The notes under the pieces are model-generated. The model saw only the letters and a list, made by a program, of their open reading frames with translations. It was not told where the DNA came from and did not search any database. Source: Candidatus Nitrosocaldaceae archaeon (GTDB taxonomy: Archaea > Thermoproteota > Nitrososphaeria > Nitrososphaerales > Nitrosocaldaceae). From it: a stretch of 26,548 nt of DNA. Numbering within the stretch: the first letter of the stretch is position 1; every line of letters begins with the position of its first letter. The position numbers were made by a program, and so were the translations under genes. The stretch spans positions 1-26,548 of the forward strand of contig BPGC01000021.1 in assembly GCA_026002835.1 (NCBI GenBank), in the 5' to 3' direction. This document shows, piece by piece, positions 6,045 to 18,832 of this stretch.

Positions 6045-6311
6045 ATGCACGAGCTCTCGCTTATGAAGGATCTTATAAACAAATTAGAGACGATAGTTAT
6101 TGAGAATAATGCAAAAAGGATCATTAGTATTAAAATAAAGTTAGGAGCATTATCACATATATCTCCAGAACATTTTAGAGAATATTTTGCGGTAATGAGT
6201 AAAGGTAAGGCTATGGAAAATGCCCGTTTAGAGATAGAGGTTATTGAAGATATCAATTCAAATGCTCAGGATATAATACTTGAAAGTGTAGAACTAGAAA
6301 TGGAAGATTAA
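6045..6311 (+). CDS. hypA: HypA-like nickel protein lacking the zinc domain
   Basis: An 88-residue HypA, the protein that delivers nickel to the hydrogenase large subunit. The N-terminal MHE nickel-binding motif is intact (MHELSLMKDL), and the core pattern I.IKLGALSHISPEHFREYF matches the family. Ordinary HypA is about 115 residues and has a Cys4 zinc loop in its C-terminal half. Here no cysteine exists at all: the chain passes from LEIEVIEDI straight to NSNAQDIILESVELEMED, which resembles the strand after the zinc loop. It looks like a clean in-frame loss, not a frameshift, since the closing strand is kept. Possible compensation by the ribbon protein at 7591-7845 is an inference. A TATA-like TTAATATAG about 26 nt upstream could be an internal promoter. 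Confidence 0.85.
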   Translation: MHELSLMKDLINKLETIVIENNAKRIISIKIKLGALSHISPEHFREYFAVMSKGKAMENARLEIEVIEDINSNAQDIILESVELEMED

Positions 6312-6337: not shown

Positions 6338-6541
6338 ATGTGTTTTGCGTTTGTTGGAAAGATAATAAGTATAAGTGATGATGAACTTATGCCGATAGCT
6401 AAAGTTGATATTAATGGACATGTTAGAGAAGTCAATATAGCAACTATTCCTAATGCTAAAATTAATGATTATATAATAATACATGCTGGAATTGGTATTA
6501 GAATAATAAATGAAGATGCAAAACTGTTATTATCAAAATAA
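6338..6541 (+). CDS. hypC: HypC family hydrogenase chaperone (copy 1, short)
   Basis: A 67-residue HypC-type chaperone, which with HypD assembles the Fe(CN)2CO unit and hands it to the large subunit. The essential N-terminal Cys2 is present, but the signature reads MCFAFVGKI where most family members have MCLAxPGKV. The conserved HAG motif is present (His49). The beta-barrel pattern and length (about 70-80) fit. A second, longer HypC gene lies at 8183-8497 in the same operon; this one is the more divergent at the N-terminus. It may serve a different step or client, but nothing in the sequence decides this. Confidence 0.88.
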   Translation: MCFAFVGKIISISDDELMPIAKVDINGHVREVNIATIPNAKINDYIIIHAGIGIRIINEDAKLLLSK

Positions 6542-6559: not shown

Positions 6560-7597
6560 ATGAACAAAGTAACTTTATTACATGGAGCAGGAGGAAGTTT
6601 TACAGATAAATTAATTAATGAACACATATTGAAGTTTATCAAACCTTATCTAAAGTTTGATGTTTCATTGAATATGTTGGACGATGCTGGAGTTTATAAT
6701 GATATAGTTATATCTACCGATACCTATACAATAAAACCATTGTTTTTTAATGGTGGAGATATAGGAAGGCTAGCTATATCTGGAACTGTTAACGATATCT
6801 CAGTTATAGGTGGTAAACCTATTGCACTATCATTAGCCCTAATAATAGAGGAAGGATTTAGTTTGGAAGAGTTGGATAAAATACTAGAGAGTATAGATAT
6901 GACATGTAAAGAAGCTGATGTAGATATAATAACTGGTGATACGAAGGTAGTTGAAAAAGGTGCGTTGGATAAATTAATGATCAATACCTCTGGCATTGGC
7001 ATAAGAAATCCATTCTTAGATGATAATATTAGTTATATAAATAGAGGAACTAAATGGCTACTAGATTCTAATATAAAAGATGGTGATAAGATAATAATAT
7101 CTGGCAGTATAGCAGATCATGGAATGAGTATATTATCTGCAAGAGAAGGTTACGAATTTGAGAGTGATATAAGATCCGATGTAATGCCATTAAATAAGGT
7201 TATAGATGAAGCATTAAGAATAAAAGGGGTTGTTAGCATAAAAGATCCCACGAGAGGAGGCATTGCTAACCTTCTTAATGAATGGTCAGAAAAGTCAAAT
7301 ATTGGAATTATGATATATGAGGATAAGATACCTATAAAAGAGAATGTTAAAGCGGCATGCTCATTTTTAGGCCTAGATCCATTAGAGATAGGTAATGAAG
7401 GCAAGATATGCTTAGCTGTTACTCGAGAAAAAGCTGAGAAGATTTTAGACGCAATAAAATCTTTTGAGGGATGTGAAGATGCCTCTATAATAGGAGAAGC
7501 TACTAATCAATTCGATGTAGTTGCTATGCGGACTATAGTTGGAGGAACTAGAATTATTAGTAAGCCAGTAGGCGATCCGGTTCCTAGAATATGTTGA
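6560..7597 (+). CDS. hypE: HypE, thiocarbamate dehydratase for cyanide ligands
   Basis: A 345-residue HypE of the PurM/ThiL (AIR synthase-like) superfamily. It dehydrates the carbamoyl group that HypF places on its C-terminal cysteine, making the thiocyanate that donates CN to iron. The required C-terminus is intact (PVPRIC, with Cys345 as the last residue). The ATP-binding N-terminal motifs LLHGAGGS, DDAGV and GTVNDISVIGGKP are visible, as is KDPTRGGIANLLNE in the C-terminal domain. Length is typical. Its last 7 nt overlap the next gene, which begins at an ATG inside the final Cys codon region. Confidence 0.95.
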   Translation: MNKVTLLHGAGGSFTDKLINEHILKFIKPYLKFDVSLNMLDDAGVYNDIVISTDTYTIKPLFFNGGDIGRLAISGTVNDISVIGGKPIALSLALIIEEGFSLEELDKILESIDMTCKEADVDIITGDTKVVEKGALDKLMINTSGIGIRNPFLDDNISYINRGTKWLLDSNIKDGDKIIISGSIADHGMSILSAREGYEFESDIRSDVMPLNKVIDEALRIKGVVSIKDPTRGGIANLLNEWSEKSNIGIMIYEDKIPIKENVKAACSFLGLDPLEIGNEGKICLAVTREKAEKILDAIKSFEGCEDASIIGEATNQFDVVAMRTIVGGTRIISKPVGDPVPRIC

Positions 7598-7845
7598 TAA
7601 AAATGTTCAAAGCACCGTCAGAAAATGATATAAAAAGACTTTACTGTCCTATCTGTGGTTTCAGTAAAAATGTTCCTATTCATTGCAATAAACCTATGAG
7701 ATGGGTTTTAGAAGGTAATTTTATTAAAGAAGAATATCTAGTATGTTCTATATGTAATTATAAGATGGATATACCAAAACATTGTAATACAATAATGTTT
7801 TATAGTGAGAGCAACTATAACGATATAAAGATCAGAGATGAGTGA
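7591..7845 (+). CDS. Small protein with two C-x2-C-x8-HC-x3-M metal-binding units
   Basis: An 84-residue protein of no family I can name. It holds two copies of one motif spaced exactly 33 residues apart: Cys19-x2-Cys22-x8-His31-Cys32-x3-Met36 and Cys52-x2-Cys55-x8-His64-Cys65-x3-Met69. The 'CxxC ... xC-x-xPM' form recalls desulforedoxin-like and related small ribbon folds, where four Cys (here three Cys and one His) bind Zn or Fe. The conserved Met is unusual for a plain zinc ribbon. It overlaps the end of hypE by 7 nt and is itself overlapped 8 nt by the next gene, so it is part of the maturation operon. A role as zinc-ribbon partner for the truncated HypA, or as a metal carrier, is inference. 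An in-frame ATG at 7603 is an alternative start. Confidence 0.72.
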   Translation: MLIKMFKAPSENDIKRLYCPICGFSKNVPIHCNKPMRWVLEGNFIKEEYLVCSICNYKMDIPKHCNTIMFYSESNYNDIKIRDE

Positions 7846-8158
7846 TACTTACTGGCATCTATTATTAGCTAATTCGATGGTTGATTTGGCTAAAAATAGC
7901 AAGACGAAAAGTGCTGCATATGCATTGTTAATAGCATTTGAAGAGTTGACAGATGCGTATGCTTCATTAGAAGATAAGCATTTTCACGAAGAGTATCTAG
8001 AAGAAGGGTGGAAGAAGAGAAGAGAATGGATGGAAGAGCATAATCTAATAGATAAATGGGAAAGATTGGTATATCTATGCAAGAAAGTTATAGAAGGTAG
8101 AGAAGATCATCTTAAAGAGATGTTCGATATCATAGAAAGTTTGAGGATATCTTTATAA
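7838..8158 (+). CDS. Hypothetical helical protein in hydrogenase maturation operon
   Basis: A 106-residue charged protein that appears entirely helical: segments around residues 5-20, 24-45, 48-75 and 78-104 are rich in Ala, Leu, Glu and Lys. A central AAYALLIAFEELTDAYASLE helix followed by HFHEEYLEEGW and KKRREWMEEH could form a four-helix bundle with an acidic and His-rich face. There are no Cys pairs, no signal peptide and no membrane segment. The helical A-x2-ALLIAFEE pattern is loosely HEPN-like, but the RNase motif of HEPN toxins is not seen. It overlaps the preceding ribbon-protein gene by 8 nt and precedes the second hypC by 24 nt, so it probably works with hydrogenase maturation; the function is unknown. 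Confidence 0.65.
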   Translation: MSDTYWHLLLANSMVDLAKNSKTKSAAYALLIAFEELTDAYASLEDKHFHEEYLEEGWKKRREWMEEHNLIDKWERLVYLCKKVIEGREDHLKEMFDIIESLRISL

Positions 8159-8182: not shown

Positions 8183-8497
8183 ATGTGTTTAGCATTTCCT
8201 GGAAAGGTTATGGAGATAGACGGAGATTATGCTAAGATAGATTTTGGAGCTAATACTATTAGGAGTAATATAAACATAGCAGAGGTTAATGCCAAGATTG
8301 GAGATTACGTTCTAGTTCATGCTGGTTATGCTATACAGATACTGGATATTGAAGAAGCAGAAAATACAATAAGATATTGGAAAGAGAATCTATTATGGAA
8401 ATGTGAACGATGTTCTATAGCAGATGAGTGTCCTTTAGGTTCTATAGCTATGGAATTGAGAACAAAAGGTGGTATATGTGATATTAGAAAAATTTAG
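8183..8497 (+). CDS. hypC: HypC family chaperone with Cys-rich C-terminal extension (copy 2)
   Basis: A 104-residue HypC. The N-terminus is canonical (MCLAFPGKV, Cys2), and VHAGYAIQILD gives the conserved His-Ala-Gly. The normal HypC fold ends near residue 65-70. After it comes an extra tail with four cysteines, Cys74-x2-Cys77-x5-Cys83-x15-Cys99, able to bind one metal or iron-sulfur cluster. Ordinary HypC/HybG proteins are 75-95 residues and lack this set. It immediately precedes hypD and overlaps it by about 20 nt, so it is the likely HypD partner; the tail could participate in electron supply or docking to HypD's cluster, which is speculation. Confidence 0.88.
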   Translation: MCLAFPGKVMEIDGDYAKIDFGANTIRSNINIAEVNAKIGDYVLVHAGYAIQILDIEEAENTIRYWKENLLWKCERCSIADECPLGSIAMELRTKGGICDIRKI

Positions 8498-9584
8498 AGA
8501 TCCTCAGTTGGCTAAAAAGGTAACTGAGAAGATACACGAATATGCTAAATATATTGAAGAACAGTTATTGTTTATGCATATATGCGGTTCTCATGAATGG
8601 AGTATGACACATTATGGTATTAGATCATTATTACCAGAGAATGTAGAAGTTAGAGCTGGTCCTGGATGTCCTGTTTGTATAACACCTGCATCTGATATAG
8701 ATACATTAGTAGAGCTAGCGTTAGAAGGTAAAGTTATCTTATCTTATGGCGATATGTCTAGGGCTAAGGGCTCAAAAGGTTTGAGTGTTATGGATACAAG
8801 ATCTTTAGGCAGCGATGTAAGATTAGTATATAGCGTTCATGATGCTATCATTAAAGCTAAAAGAGAACCAGAAAGAGATTTCATATTCTTTGGTGCTGGA
8901 TTTGATACTACTGCACCTCCTACAGCTTATGAGATCCTTAATGGCATTCCTGAAAATCTGAGTTTTATGATATCTTATCGTTATATGCCTCCTATTGCTG
9001 GAGCAGTTCTAAGATCTTCATTATTAGGTATAGATGGAGTTATAAATCCTGGACATTCATCTACAATAACTGGTATGAAACCATATTATAGATACTTTTT
9101 AGAAACAAGAAAACCTCAAGTCTTTTGTGGTTTTGAACCATTAGATCTCTTACTTGGTATACTAATGTTATTAAAGCAGATAAGAGAAGATAAGCCCAAA
9201 TTAGAAAATGAATATACTAGATCTGTTACATGGTCAGGCAATATTACAGCACAAAAGACATTAGATAAAGTCTTCGAGTTAGATGAGGGGTATCTTAGAG
9301 GGGTTGCAACTTTACCAGAATGTGGTTTTAGATTTAAGGATAAATATAAAAGTCTGGATGTATATGAACGTTATTCATTAAAGAAGAAGAGTCCTAAAGA
9401 TGAGTTTGTATGTGGCGCAAGGTGTGGAGAAGTAATTCTTGGTTTAACAGATCCTCCAGAATGTCCATTATATATGAAAGAATGTACACCATCAACTCCA
9501 AAAGGTCCAACAATGGTATCACAAGAAGGAACATGTAAGATCTGGGCTGAGCATGGCATAACAAATTCTATTTGCAGGATATAA
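8478..9584 (+). CDS. hypD: HypD, iron-sulfur scaffold for Fe(CN)2CO assembly
   Basis: A 368-residue HypD, the scaffold with a [4Fe-4S] cluster on which, with HypC, the Fe(CN)2CO unit is built. The conserved motifs are MHICGSHE (Cys36), GPGCPVC (Cys64, Cys67), GFDTTAPPTA (family GFETT), CGARCGEVI, and the C-terminal CPLYMKECTPSTPKG followed by MVSQEGTC. The start is a GTG. I prefer 8478 because AGGTGG ends 5 nt before it; a GTG at 8469 is in frame and would add three residues. It overlaps hypC copy 2, and the aldolase-like gene follows after a single base. Confidence 0.94.
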   Translation: MILEKFRDPQLAKKVTEKIHEYAKYIEEQLLFMHICGSHEWSMTHYGIRSLLPENVEVRAGPGCPVCITPASDIDTLVELALEGKVILSYGDMSRAKGSKGLSVMDTRSLGSDVRLVYSVHDAIIKAKREPERDFIFFGAGFDTTAPPTAYEILNGIPENLSFMISYRYMPPIAGAVLRSSLLGIDGVINPGHSSTITGMKPYYRYFLETRKPQVFCGFEPLDLLLGILMLLKQIREDKPKLENEYTRSVTWSGNITAQKTLDKVFELDEGYLRGVATLPECGFRFKDKYKSLDVYERYSLKKKSPKDEFVCGARCGEVILGLTDPPECPLYMKECTPSTPKGPTMVSQEGTCKIWAEHGITNSICRI

Positions 9585-9585
9585 A

Positions 9586-10185
9586 ATGGCATTCTTTATA
9601 GGTAATAGTTTCTGTAATTTATGTCAAAAAGATAAAGAGTCTTTACTTAAAGAGATGAAACTATGTCTAAAAGGTTTGAAACTTAAAGGATTTGTTATAT
9701 ATAGTGCGAGTGCAAAACTTCCTAGAGATGATAATATTATATTCGAAGGCAAAGATCTAGAATTGCATAAAGCGATATACAATAAGAGACCAGATATCAA
9801 CTCGATATTTCATGCAAAGAATGTATATATCTATGCTGCTACTAAAGATGGGTTAATAGATACCGTTCATGCAGAGGCTACGTTAGTATTAGGAGATATA
9901 ATAATAACATCTGATAATTCTATACATAATATAAGTAACCTTGCTATAGGAGAACCTTTGAGACCTATTCGTATAATAATTTACAAAGATGAGATATTTG
10001 GTTTAGGAGCATGTGTCCATGAATCTAGGGCATTTCTAGAGATAATGGACGAATGGGCTCGAGTAAAAGTTATAGCAAAAGCATTAGGAGATATAAGATA
10101 TCCAATTACATTAGAGAAGTTAAGATCACTAGGAGCTAGATATGCTAGAGCAATAAAATTTGGTGGTAGGAGTATTGTTAGATAG
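9586..10185 (+). CDS. Class II aldolase-fold protein, probably non-catalytic
   Basis: A 199-residue protein that aligns with the class II aldolase next to it (10196-10786) and is probably a diverged paralogue. The matching stretch is LHKAIYNKRPDINSIFHAKN (residues 60-79) against FHTQIYKVRDDINAVSHTHS, and YKDEIFGLGACVHE (133-146) against LDHGVVSLGRCIHE. Of the three zinc-binding histidines of the family, only the first is kept (His76); the second is Lys78 and the third is Asp/Glu. The catalytic Glu is not clear either. It also has an N-terminal CNLC pair (Cys10, Cys13). It likely lacks aldolase chemistry and may form a complex with its neighbour. It starts 1 nt after hypD, which ties it to hydrogenase maturation rather than to sugar metabolism, though this is inferred. 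Confidence 0.7.
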   Translation: MAFFIGNSFCNLCQKDKESLLKEMKLCLKGLKLKGFVIYSASAKLPRDDNIIFEGKDLELHKAIYNKRPDINSIFHAKNVYIYAATKDGLIDTVHAEATLVLGDIIITSDNSIHNISNLAIGEPLRPIRIIIYKDEIFGLGACVHESRAFLEIMDEWARVKVIAKALGDIRYPITLEKLRSLGARYARAIKFGGRSIVR

Positions 10186-10195
10186 ATGTAAATTT

Positions 10196-10786
10196 ATGGA
10201 TGAGGAGAAACTTAAGGAGGAATTAGTAAGATCTGTAAAGACATTATTTTCAAAAGGTTACGTATCTGTTGGAGGAGGCAATCATAGTTTTAGATATAAA
10301 GAACTTATATGGATAACACCTTCAGGCTATCCTAGATCTCACCTAAATGCTAAAGATCTCGTTTTGATTGATATAAATGGTAAGATAATAGGAGGAGATC
10401 TTAGACCATCTATTGAAACACCATTTCATACACAGATATACAAAGTTAGAGATGATATCAACGCTGTATCGCATACCCATTCTCCATATACTCATGCTTT
10501 AGCTCAAGCATCTCTTTTAATAGAGAAAAGTAATGGTATATTCAGTTTTAAAGAGTTAGAATTTCCTAAAATATTAGGTAATATAGCTGTTTTAGAGTAT
10601 AGACAACTAGGTTCTAAAGCATTAGCAAAATTAGTTGGAGAGGCATCTTATGATAGTAATATTATGATATTATTAGATCATGGAGTTGTAAGTTTAGGCA
10701 GATGTATACATGAAGCTGTTTTTTATATATTATTGTTAGAAGAGTTTGCTAGATGTTTTCTTGTGTCAAGGATATTAGATGCATAA
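10196..10786 (+). CDS. Class II aldolase/adducin family protein (fuculose-1-P aldolase-like)
   Basis: A 196-residue zinc-dependent aldolase-fold protein. The active-site set is complete: GGGNHSFR near the N-terminus, a Glu at residue 74 in SIETPFH, HTHS with His93 and His95, and DHGVV with His162. These correspond closely in place to the Glu73, His92, His94 and His155 of fuculose-1-phosphate aldolase. Relatives cleave sugar phosphates to dihydroxyacetone phosphate and an aldehyde, or act as dehydratases or decarboxylases; the substrate here is unknown. The ATG at 10196 gives the family-length N-terminus; TTG codons at 10160 and 10175 are possible earlier starts. It ends the long operon between hypD and hypF, an unusual place for a sugar aldolase. 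Its last 64 nt overlap hypF tail to tail. Confidence 0.82.
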   Translation: MDEEKLKEELVRSVKTLFSKGYVSVGGGNHSFRYKELIWITPSGYPRSHLNAKDLVLIDINGKIIGGDLRPSIETPFHTQIYKVRDDINAVSHTHSPYTHALAQASLLIEKSNGIFSFKELEFPKILGNIAVLEYRQLGSKALAKLVGEASYDSNIMILLDHGVVSLGRCIHEAVFYILLLEEFARCFLVSRILDA

Positions 10787-18058: not shown

Positions 18059-18832
18059 ATGAAGGTTAGAGATATCCTAAATGCAATAAAGGAGAATGAG
18101 ATTAGTATAGATGAGGCTGAGAAATTATTATCATTGCATGCAATAGAACATATAGAAGATATAGCAAAACTGGATATAAATAGAGAGGTTAGAAGAGGAG
18201 TTCCAGAGGTTATTTATGCTGAGAATAAATCATTCAATGATATTAGAACAATAGCATTAAAGGTATTAAAGAAGAATGATTATGTCATAATAAGTAGAGT
18301 TAAAGATGAAGATCTAAAAAGACTAAAGAATGCTCTGAAAGGTTATAAGATGAAGATAGGAAAGTATAGCAATACAATATTAGCATATAAGAAAGAATTG
18401 AGAGAAGAGTATGGTCCGATAGGTATACTAACAGCTGGAACTTCAGATATTGGAGTTGCTGAAGAAGCAGAGTTTGTGCTTAATGCTATGAACTGTAAAG
18501 TTGTTAAAGGATATGATGTTGGAGTTGCTGGTATTCATAGATTATTTCCCATACTAAAGGAGATGATTGCTAGTGATGTTGATGCTATAATAGTAATTGC
18601 TGGTATGGAAGGAGCTCTAGCATCGGTAGTTGCTTCTCTAGTAGATATACCAGTTATAGGAGTTCCAACTTCAATAGGTTATGGATTCGGCTCAAATGGA
18701 TATGGAGCGTTAGCATCTATGCTACAAAGCTGCTCTTTTGGATTAGCAGTTATCAATATAGATAATGGTATAGGTGCTGGAGCATTTGCTAGCCTAATAG
18801 CAAAAAGAGTAGGAAAGTTCAAATTGAGTTGA
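18059..18832 (+). CDS. larB: LarB, nickel-pincer cofactor biosynthesis carboxylase
   Basis: A 257-residue LarB of the PurE (AIR carboxylase) superfamily. LarB carboxylates and hydrolyses nicotinic acid adenine dinucleotide in the first step of nickel-pincer cofactor synthesis. Evidence: the N-terminal LarB domain with DINREVRRGVPEVIYAENKS (residues about 40-59), then the PurE-like domain with ILTAGTSDIGVAEEAE, YDVGVAGIHRL, VIAGMEGALASVVASLVD and PVIGVPTSIGYG. The full length is typical. LarC and LarE, the other pathway enzymes, and a LarA racemase are not in the window. It converges on the HerA gene and overlaps it by 14 nt. Confidence 0.9.
   Translation: MKVRDILNAIKENEISIDEAEKLLSLHAIEHIEDIAKLDINREVRRGVPEVIYAENKSFNDIRTIALKVLKKNDYVIISRVKDEDLKRLKNALKGYKMKIGKYSNTILAYKKELREEYGPIGILTAGTSDIGVAEEAEFVLNAMNCKVVKGYDVGVAGIHRLFPILKEMIASDVDAIIVIAGMEGALASVVASLVDIPVIGVPTSIGYGFGSNGYGALASMLQSCSFGLAVINIDNGIGAGAFASLIAKRVGKFKLS

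Follow-up and report, generated by a model that had tools for sequence, protein, structure and literature searches.

Small double-knuckle proteins encoded behind hypE in Nitrososphaeria and a Sulfolobales-like group, a possible accessory factor of [NiFe]-hydrogenase maturation

In the maturation of [NiFe] hydrogenases, nickel is handled by HypA and HypB. Aerobic bacteria also have HoxR/HupI, small Cys-rich rubredoxin-like maturation proteins of the Cys4 type that are encoded in hydrogenase loci, among the hydrogenase genes. An excerpt of PMC12134894 states that the cofactor requires six Hyp proteins, A to F, and that some archaeal HypB hydrolyse ATP; according to a passage of the review PMC7055735, all HypA have a zinc site. 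The Acidianus ambivalens gene hypY is a 70-amino-acid open reading frame (ORF) of unknown function, listed after hypE in Table 2 of PMC5461723 (from Laska et al. 2003), and the Metallosphaera comparison in an excerpt of PMC7325606 reports no hypY. Here we describe a small gene, X, that follows hypE in a 26,548-nucleotide stretch of Candidatus Nitrosocaldaceae archaeon DNA (contig BPGC01000021.1 of assembly GCA_026002835.1, positions 1 to 26,548; hereafter the window). An earlier note on this DNA had put X forward as a candidate for an undescribed maturation factor.

X was read as an 84-codon ORF on the + strand at 7591..7845, which, if read from 7591, overlaps the end of hypE (6560..7597, +; Pfam AIRS/AIRS_C). 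The start Met of the Nitrososphaeria relatives aligns with window residue 5, and the window gene therefore probably starts at 7603, 5 nucleotides past the hypE stop, and encodes 80 amino acids (7603..7845, +). With that start, the overlap between X and hypE is not conserved. The protein carries two knuckle units, C19-x2-C22-x8-H31-C32-x3-M36 (7645..7698, +) and C52-x2-C55-x8-H64-C65-x3-M69 (7744..7797, +), both conserved in relatives. The earlier note had reported two units 33 residues apart with an identical Cys/His/Met pattern, and a check of the ORF and its sequence bore this out, the spacing being exactly 33 residues.

Relatives were sought along two routes. Starting from the HypE of the window, we reached one Bathyarchaeota record, and the genome of that record led to HypE at an expectation value (E) ≤1e-60 in 197 of 398 genomes of the phylum; an X relative stood behind hypE in the four nearest genomes (G351, G198, G274 and G258) and in G284. 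A six-sequence X profile found 17 proteins besides the window's own in the protein database, six of them with source names: Candidatus Nitrosocaldus (three), Nitrososphaeraceae archaeon (two) and Nitrososphaerales archaeon (one). One of the database proteins, P0002, has the same sequence as the X protein of G351. Against 300 genomes of the class Nitrososphaeria, the same profile matched 23 at E≤0.01, comprising nine strong matches (E<1e-25), six intermediate ones (E 1e-10 to 1e-15) and eight weak ones, which were discarded as chance. A wider profile (A4), which took in the intermediate sequences, matched 13 of the 398 phylum genomes at E≤1e-5, five already known and eight new. The class and phylum samples have five X genomes in common, and the phylum samples used for HypE and for X appear to be the same genomes. 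In total, X is carried by 17 distinct genomes (E<1e-21) plus the window.

The hosts fall into Nitrososphaeria, with Nitrosocaldus and Nitrososphaeraceae types, and a second group of eight genomes resembling Sulfolobales. The Nitrososphaeraceae type was assigned to G284, G495, G585 and G515 by likeness to named proteins. The genomes of the second group measure 2.0–3.0 Mb, and in seven a single contig is nearly as long as the genome. Their loci have a guanine-cytosine content of 32–53%, and in one of them (L171) there are two hydrogenase large subunits as well as a NicT/HoxN-like transporter that stays just under cut-off, from which we infer a fit to Sulfolobales such as Acidianus and Metallosphaera, genera for which an excerpt of PMC11018855 describes several hydrogenases. 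All 13 X genomes of the phylum sample were HypE-positive, compared with 197 of 398 genomes overall, and a [NiFe] large subunit was present in all nine X genomes of the class sample.

The place of X in the genome is constant. It lies directly downstream of hypE in all 18 loci (17 genomes and the window), with a gap of 1–72 nucleotides between the hypE stop and the X start. No X relative stood behind hypE in any of 64 X-negative control loci, in which 1.5–2.6 kilobases (kb) at the hypE end were scanned and the best profile score was E 0.095; the controls were 24 from the early and 40 from the later part of the 197 HypE matches, some of them near-identical. The coupling to hypE proposed by the earlier note thus stands as adjacency but not as overlap. 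In the nearest relative, G462, whose HypE is 76% identical, the cluster is divided among three contigs and X keeps its place beside hypE: one contig has hypA-hypC1-hypE-X-ORF106, another the hydrogenase genes and the third hypC2-hypD-ald. The second-group order is hypE-X-hypC-hypD-aldolase, with each gene in all eight loci. Local identity of the hydrogenase large subunit to that of the window is 70–77% in Nitrosocaldus types, 33–35% in Nitrososphaeraceae types and 22–28% in the second group. Since X accompanies such unlike hydrogenases, a role in some general step of maturation is more plausible than a partnership with one enzyme. A HypE tree was built from 43 rows, 18 with X and 25 of the nearest without. 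In it, the X rows form one side of one branch, with a Shimodaira-Hasegawa-like approximate likelihood ratio (SH-aLRT) of 88, which lies under the mark for strong support; the rows without X are best matches rather than the full sample.

We aligned 31 X sequences, from the 18 loci and from 13 database proteins of unseen context, all either hypE-linked or closely matching. Two fragments were kept apart, one of 47 amino acids (P0017) and one of 77 that lacks the unit-1 cysteines and comes from a 538-base contig (P0018). Invariant in all 31 were C19, C22, P29, H31, G42, F44, C52, C55, H64, C65, M69, Y71 and Y76, and M36 was retained in 30. We conclude from this conservation that the unit pattern is not due to chance. 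The HC pair remarked on in the earlier note holds for unit 2, where C65 is invariant, but not for unit 1, where residue 32 is His in 22 sequences and Cys in nine (the window and the eight second-group genomes). Exchange of Cys and His at one position, with the others fixed, is typical of a zinc ligand, and zinc sites commonly tolerate it. The sequences thus suggest C19, C22 and H31, with Cys or His at residue 32, and C52, C55, H64 and C65 as the likely metal ligands.

An AlphaFold2 model of X built from 16 sequences has a mean predicted local distance difference test (pLDDT) score of 75.7. Scores fall below 50 at residues 1–12 and 74–84, and residues 21–70 reach block means of 86–94. The model contains two similarly built beta units, with strands at 14–18, 25–27 and 37–41 and at 47–51, 58–60 and 70–74. 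Foldseek and a second search returned no match above noise.

Searches of named families gave no home for X. No Pfam or NCBIfam model reached its cut-off, the nearest being zf-Sec23_Sec24 (23.8 bits against 25), and a single-sequence search of a large protein set returned the window protein alone. The best PDB matches had E 0.22 or worse, with rubredoxins at the top (phmmer E 0.22–0.46; profile E 0.38–0.41), and Pfam RUBY_RBDX matched the X family at E 0.13 and 12.2 bits, with a cut-off of 26.5, so that no rubredoxin match was above threshold by sequence, profile or Pfam. Zinc-ribbon families and the zinc region of PriA were also matched, weakly. For six X family members, the 20 Pfam families matched at E≤1 did not include Desulfoferrodox_N (desulforedoxin), and PF01155 (HypA) was likewise absent from their matches at E≤1. 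As the earlier note had supposed, X belongs to no named family in the libraries searched, yet it is conserved as a family of its own.

Like the HypA zinc domain, X has two C-x2-C motifs and belongs to a hyp operon, but in X each C-x2-C is followed by a His-Cys or His-His pair and then by a Met. X also lacks the MHE nickel motif at the N-terminus, its sequences opening with MFKA, MFR, MAKL, MARL or MEKL. The C-x2-C knuckle is shared with rubredoxin and desulforedoxin, and the desulforedoxin motif CCGxPM resembles HCGxPM of X; theirs is a Cys4 iron site, whereas X has C-C-H-C or C-C-H-H in two units. HoxR/HupI resemble X in being small Cys-rich proteins of hydrogenase loci but differ from it in their Cys4-type site and in their place among hydrogenase genes. 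HypY, encoded straight after hypE in a Sulfolobales hydrogenase cluster, has 70–72 amino acids, compared with 77–94 for most X; it may be a relative of X. We conclude that X is a real hypE-linked family for which, apart from the possible tie to hypY, no description was found.

Proteins of similar build also occur away from hyp loci. The six intermediate class matches (G405, G402, G408, G411, G514 and G601) are two-unit archaeal proteins with 26–50% BLAST identity to X and, as in X, the arrangement C-x2-C-x8-HH-x3-M followed by C-x2-C-x8-H[CH]-x3-M. They share the ligand-type set with X (one has H at 65), but F44 and Y76 occur in none of the six and E48 in one. No hyp genes were found around them in the 4.6–18 kb fetched. 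In four genomes, such proteins adjoin acyl-CoA-synthetase-like and sugar-kinase-like genes (loci L140–L145; names assigned by eye). A hydrogenase large subunit was not found in the genomes of two of the six, G514 (E 4.5e-12) and G601 (E 1.4e-10). We conclude that the double-knuckle module as such extends beyond hydrogenase. The earlier note had counted close homologues in genomes without [NiFe] hydrogenase as evidence against a maturation factor; only these two distant proteins were found in such genomes.

We tentatively favour a reading in which X is a dedicated [NiFe]-hydrogenase maturation accessory factor, a two-site zinc adaptor acting at the HypE / HypC-HypD step in Nitrososphaeria and the Sulfolobales-like group. 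As modelled, X would fold as two similar small beta units, each with one structural metal ion, most likely zinc, held through the C-x2-C and the adjacent H-C or H-H pair. Encoded with HypE, X would most likely serve for docking or as an adaptor at the HypE / HypC-HypD stage, either passing HypE with its cyanide on to HypCD or bringing HypCD to the large subunit. The proposal of the earlier note has gained an unnamed family, the invariant residues, the place behind hypE in 18 of 18 loci, hydrogenase in nine of nine genomes and the company of widely different hydrogenases as its direct basis, and from these we infer the two separate sites, the zinc and the adaptor role, with a putative partner and a putative step.

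The main rival, which we consider unlikely, is that X, together with the neighbouring ORF106, takes over nickel loading in place of the HypB NTPase and the zinc domain of HypA, so that nickel would be inserted by the zinc-less HypA in Nitrosocaldus types and by X plus ORF106 alone in Nitrososphaeraceae types. HypD was present in 31 of the 300 class genomes, including all nine X genomes. In none of these nine was there a full HypA, a HypB (TIGR00073) over cut-off or a MinD-type ATPase adjacent to hypA, the sole match to the last being a 362–416-amino-acid frame of Mrp size. Five of the nine, all Nitrosocaldus types, have a HypA that matches PF01155 up to position 66 of 112 and is thus zinc-less. 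The window hypA (6045..6311, +; 88 amino acids) matches positions 1–68 of 112 and likewise lacks the zinc loop. The other four had no HypA over cut-off, and a zinc-less HypA profile also found none there at E≤1. All five zinc-less HypA among the 300 genomes are in X genomes. By comparison, 21 of the 22 HypD-positive genomes without X combine a full HypA (matched to position 101 or beyond) with an adjacent HypB (five) or a MinD/Mrp-type ATPase 32–96 nucleotides from hypA (16). The exception, G611, has UreG but no more than part of a hypD, where a contig ends, and may be an incomplete X genome. We read the hypA-adjacent ATPase as a putative ATP-type archaeal HypB, by its position and by work in Thermococcus, which we take to support this reading.

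The association of full HypA with absence of X has a Fisher p of 5e-7, but the X genomes are related, shared ancestry is uncorrected in this value, and the whole pattern may reflect one or two ancestral events; genome incompleteness also weakens each single absence. The earlier note had proposed testing whether X accompanies zinc-less HypA and absent HypB. Within Nitrososphaeria, it does accompany zinc-less or undetected HypA and undetected HypB of either kind; the lack of GTPase-type HypB alone is not specific to X, since 17 of the 22 genomes without X lack it too. In three of the four X genomes without detected HypA, the zinc half of PF01155 has matches below cut-off (E 1e-5 to 8e-4), which we assumed to be unrelated zinc proteins and which nonetheless count against nickel loading by X, as does the lack of any match of X itself to PF01155. 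A stronger objection comes from the second group. In G089 (locus L177), a full HypA, which matches PF01155 at 73 bits and carries two C-x2-C motifs, is encoded in a row with a NUBPL/MinD ATPase, hypE and X; in the other seven genomes of this group, HypA was looked at within the 20-kb loci. X can therefore coexist with the full nickel pair and is not, contrary to one suggestion of the earlier note, a simple substitute for the HypA zinc loop, and in the four X genomes without detected HypA there would be no HypA for it to complement. It seems similarly improbable that X, together with ORF106, constitutes another module for nickel insertion, thanks to which archaea of the ammonia-oxidising type could dispense with HypB and with the zinc domain of HypA, Nitrosocaldus types keeping only a zinc-less HypA and Nitrososphaeraceae types, which have neither protein, relying on X plus ORF106.

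Similarity to rubredoxin raises a further alternative, that X is a rubredoxin/desulforedoxin-like redox or O2-protection protein for maturation in O2-exposed cells, after the manner of HoxR/HupI. The spacing of its C-x2-C pairs is like that of the rubredoxin Fe site, and the weak rubredoxin matches given above point the same way. However, a redox Fe(Cys)4 site is at odds with the additional invariant His and with Cys/His exchange at residue 32, and the invariant His, with the repeat of the whole unit, would favour two sites. Moreover, the X gene follows hypE rather than hydrogenase subunit genes, and we regard this alternative as doubtful. The hosts described (Nitrosocaldus, and Acidianus and Metallosphaera if the second group is Sulfolobales) are aerobic or facultative, which would suit such a role, although for the second group both the name and the way of life are themselves deduced. 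If X is present there, the hypE1/C1/D1 genes of Acidianus brierleyi also speak against this alternative, as an excerpt of PMC11018855 places them after an anaerobically induced hydrogenase.

A position between hypE and hypC-hypD, along with two sets of invariant metal-type residues, would also suit a donor that supplies HypCD with the iron, or with a different metal, for building the Fe(CN)2CO group; no direct donor of that iron is known. Nothing speaks directly against such delivery; nevertheless, tetrahedral Cys/His sites usually hold their metal tightly, and we think it quite improbable. It is equally hard to credit that X regulates the hyp operon as a zinc-ribbon protein binding nucleic acids, or that it is an ordinary small zinc protein kept beside hypE by nothing more than common descent. 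The zinc-ribbon and PriA matches and the X-like proteins of genomes without detected hydrogenase might point that way, but adjacency to hypE in every locus of two distant groups, with different next genes, is difficult to explain without a functional tie.

Around hypE and X, the window contains a hypC-like gene (6338..6541, +), a second hypC (8183..8497, +) conserved with hypD (8469..9584, +), and, directly after hypD, the class II aldolase-like genes AldA (9586..10185, +) and AldB (10160..10786, +). ORF106 (7838..8158, +) adjoins X in all nine Nitrososphaeria loci, weakly in G515 (E 2e-4). Its model has five helices (pLDDT 94) and a HEPN-like appearance (2hsb, template modelling score 0.70, but E 1.6). 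An HFH motif and E35/D39 are conserved, and the residues invariant across 28 sequences are E35, A40, H48, F49, H50 and R61. Relatives besides the window's own numbered 27 at E≤0.1, those with organism names coming from Nitrosocaldus, Nitrosocaldaceae, Nitrososphaeraceae or archaeon HR04. Profile comparison, with seven of the eight loci used, gave a weak match (probability 70%, E 4e-5) between ORF106 and a helical protein of about 100 amino acids in second-group hyp loci.

AldA stands beside hypD in all nine class X genomes and in none of the 22 HypD genomes without X, two of which have weak matches (1e-9) elsewhere, and an Aldolase_II-type gene follows hypD in all eight second-group loci. AldA/AldB is possibly a further maturation enzyme, for example for the CO ligand. 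In the second-group loci (L171–L178), a short gene follows the aldolase, and the two tested match FeS_assembly_P (DUF59-type) below cut-off. By eye, the second HypC of the window has a Cys-rich C-terminal tail past the HypC domain, and a small cyclic-nucleotide-binding-like gene lies at 2285–2737 within the hydrogenase operon; according to an excerpt of PMC5797428, the cluster of N. cavascurensis includes a regulator activated by cAMP. Further along, at 18059–18832, LarB (nickel-pincer cofactor biosynthesis, over cut-off) lies downstream of an etf/FixC-like cluster.

The zinc-less HypA of Nitrosocaldus types is an exception to the statement of PMC7055735 on HypA zinc sites and is of interest in itself. 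This archaeal lineage has well-kept hyp operons, no detected HypB of either kind and a HypA that is cut down or undetected, yet it conserves X and its helical partner. Here the maturation pathway shows a definite gap that can be tested, with X and ORF106 as the named candidates, and if the second group is Sulfolobales, the question would be open to genetically tractable organisms.
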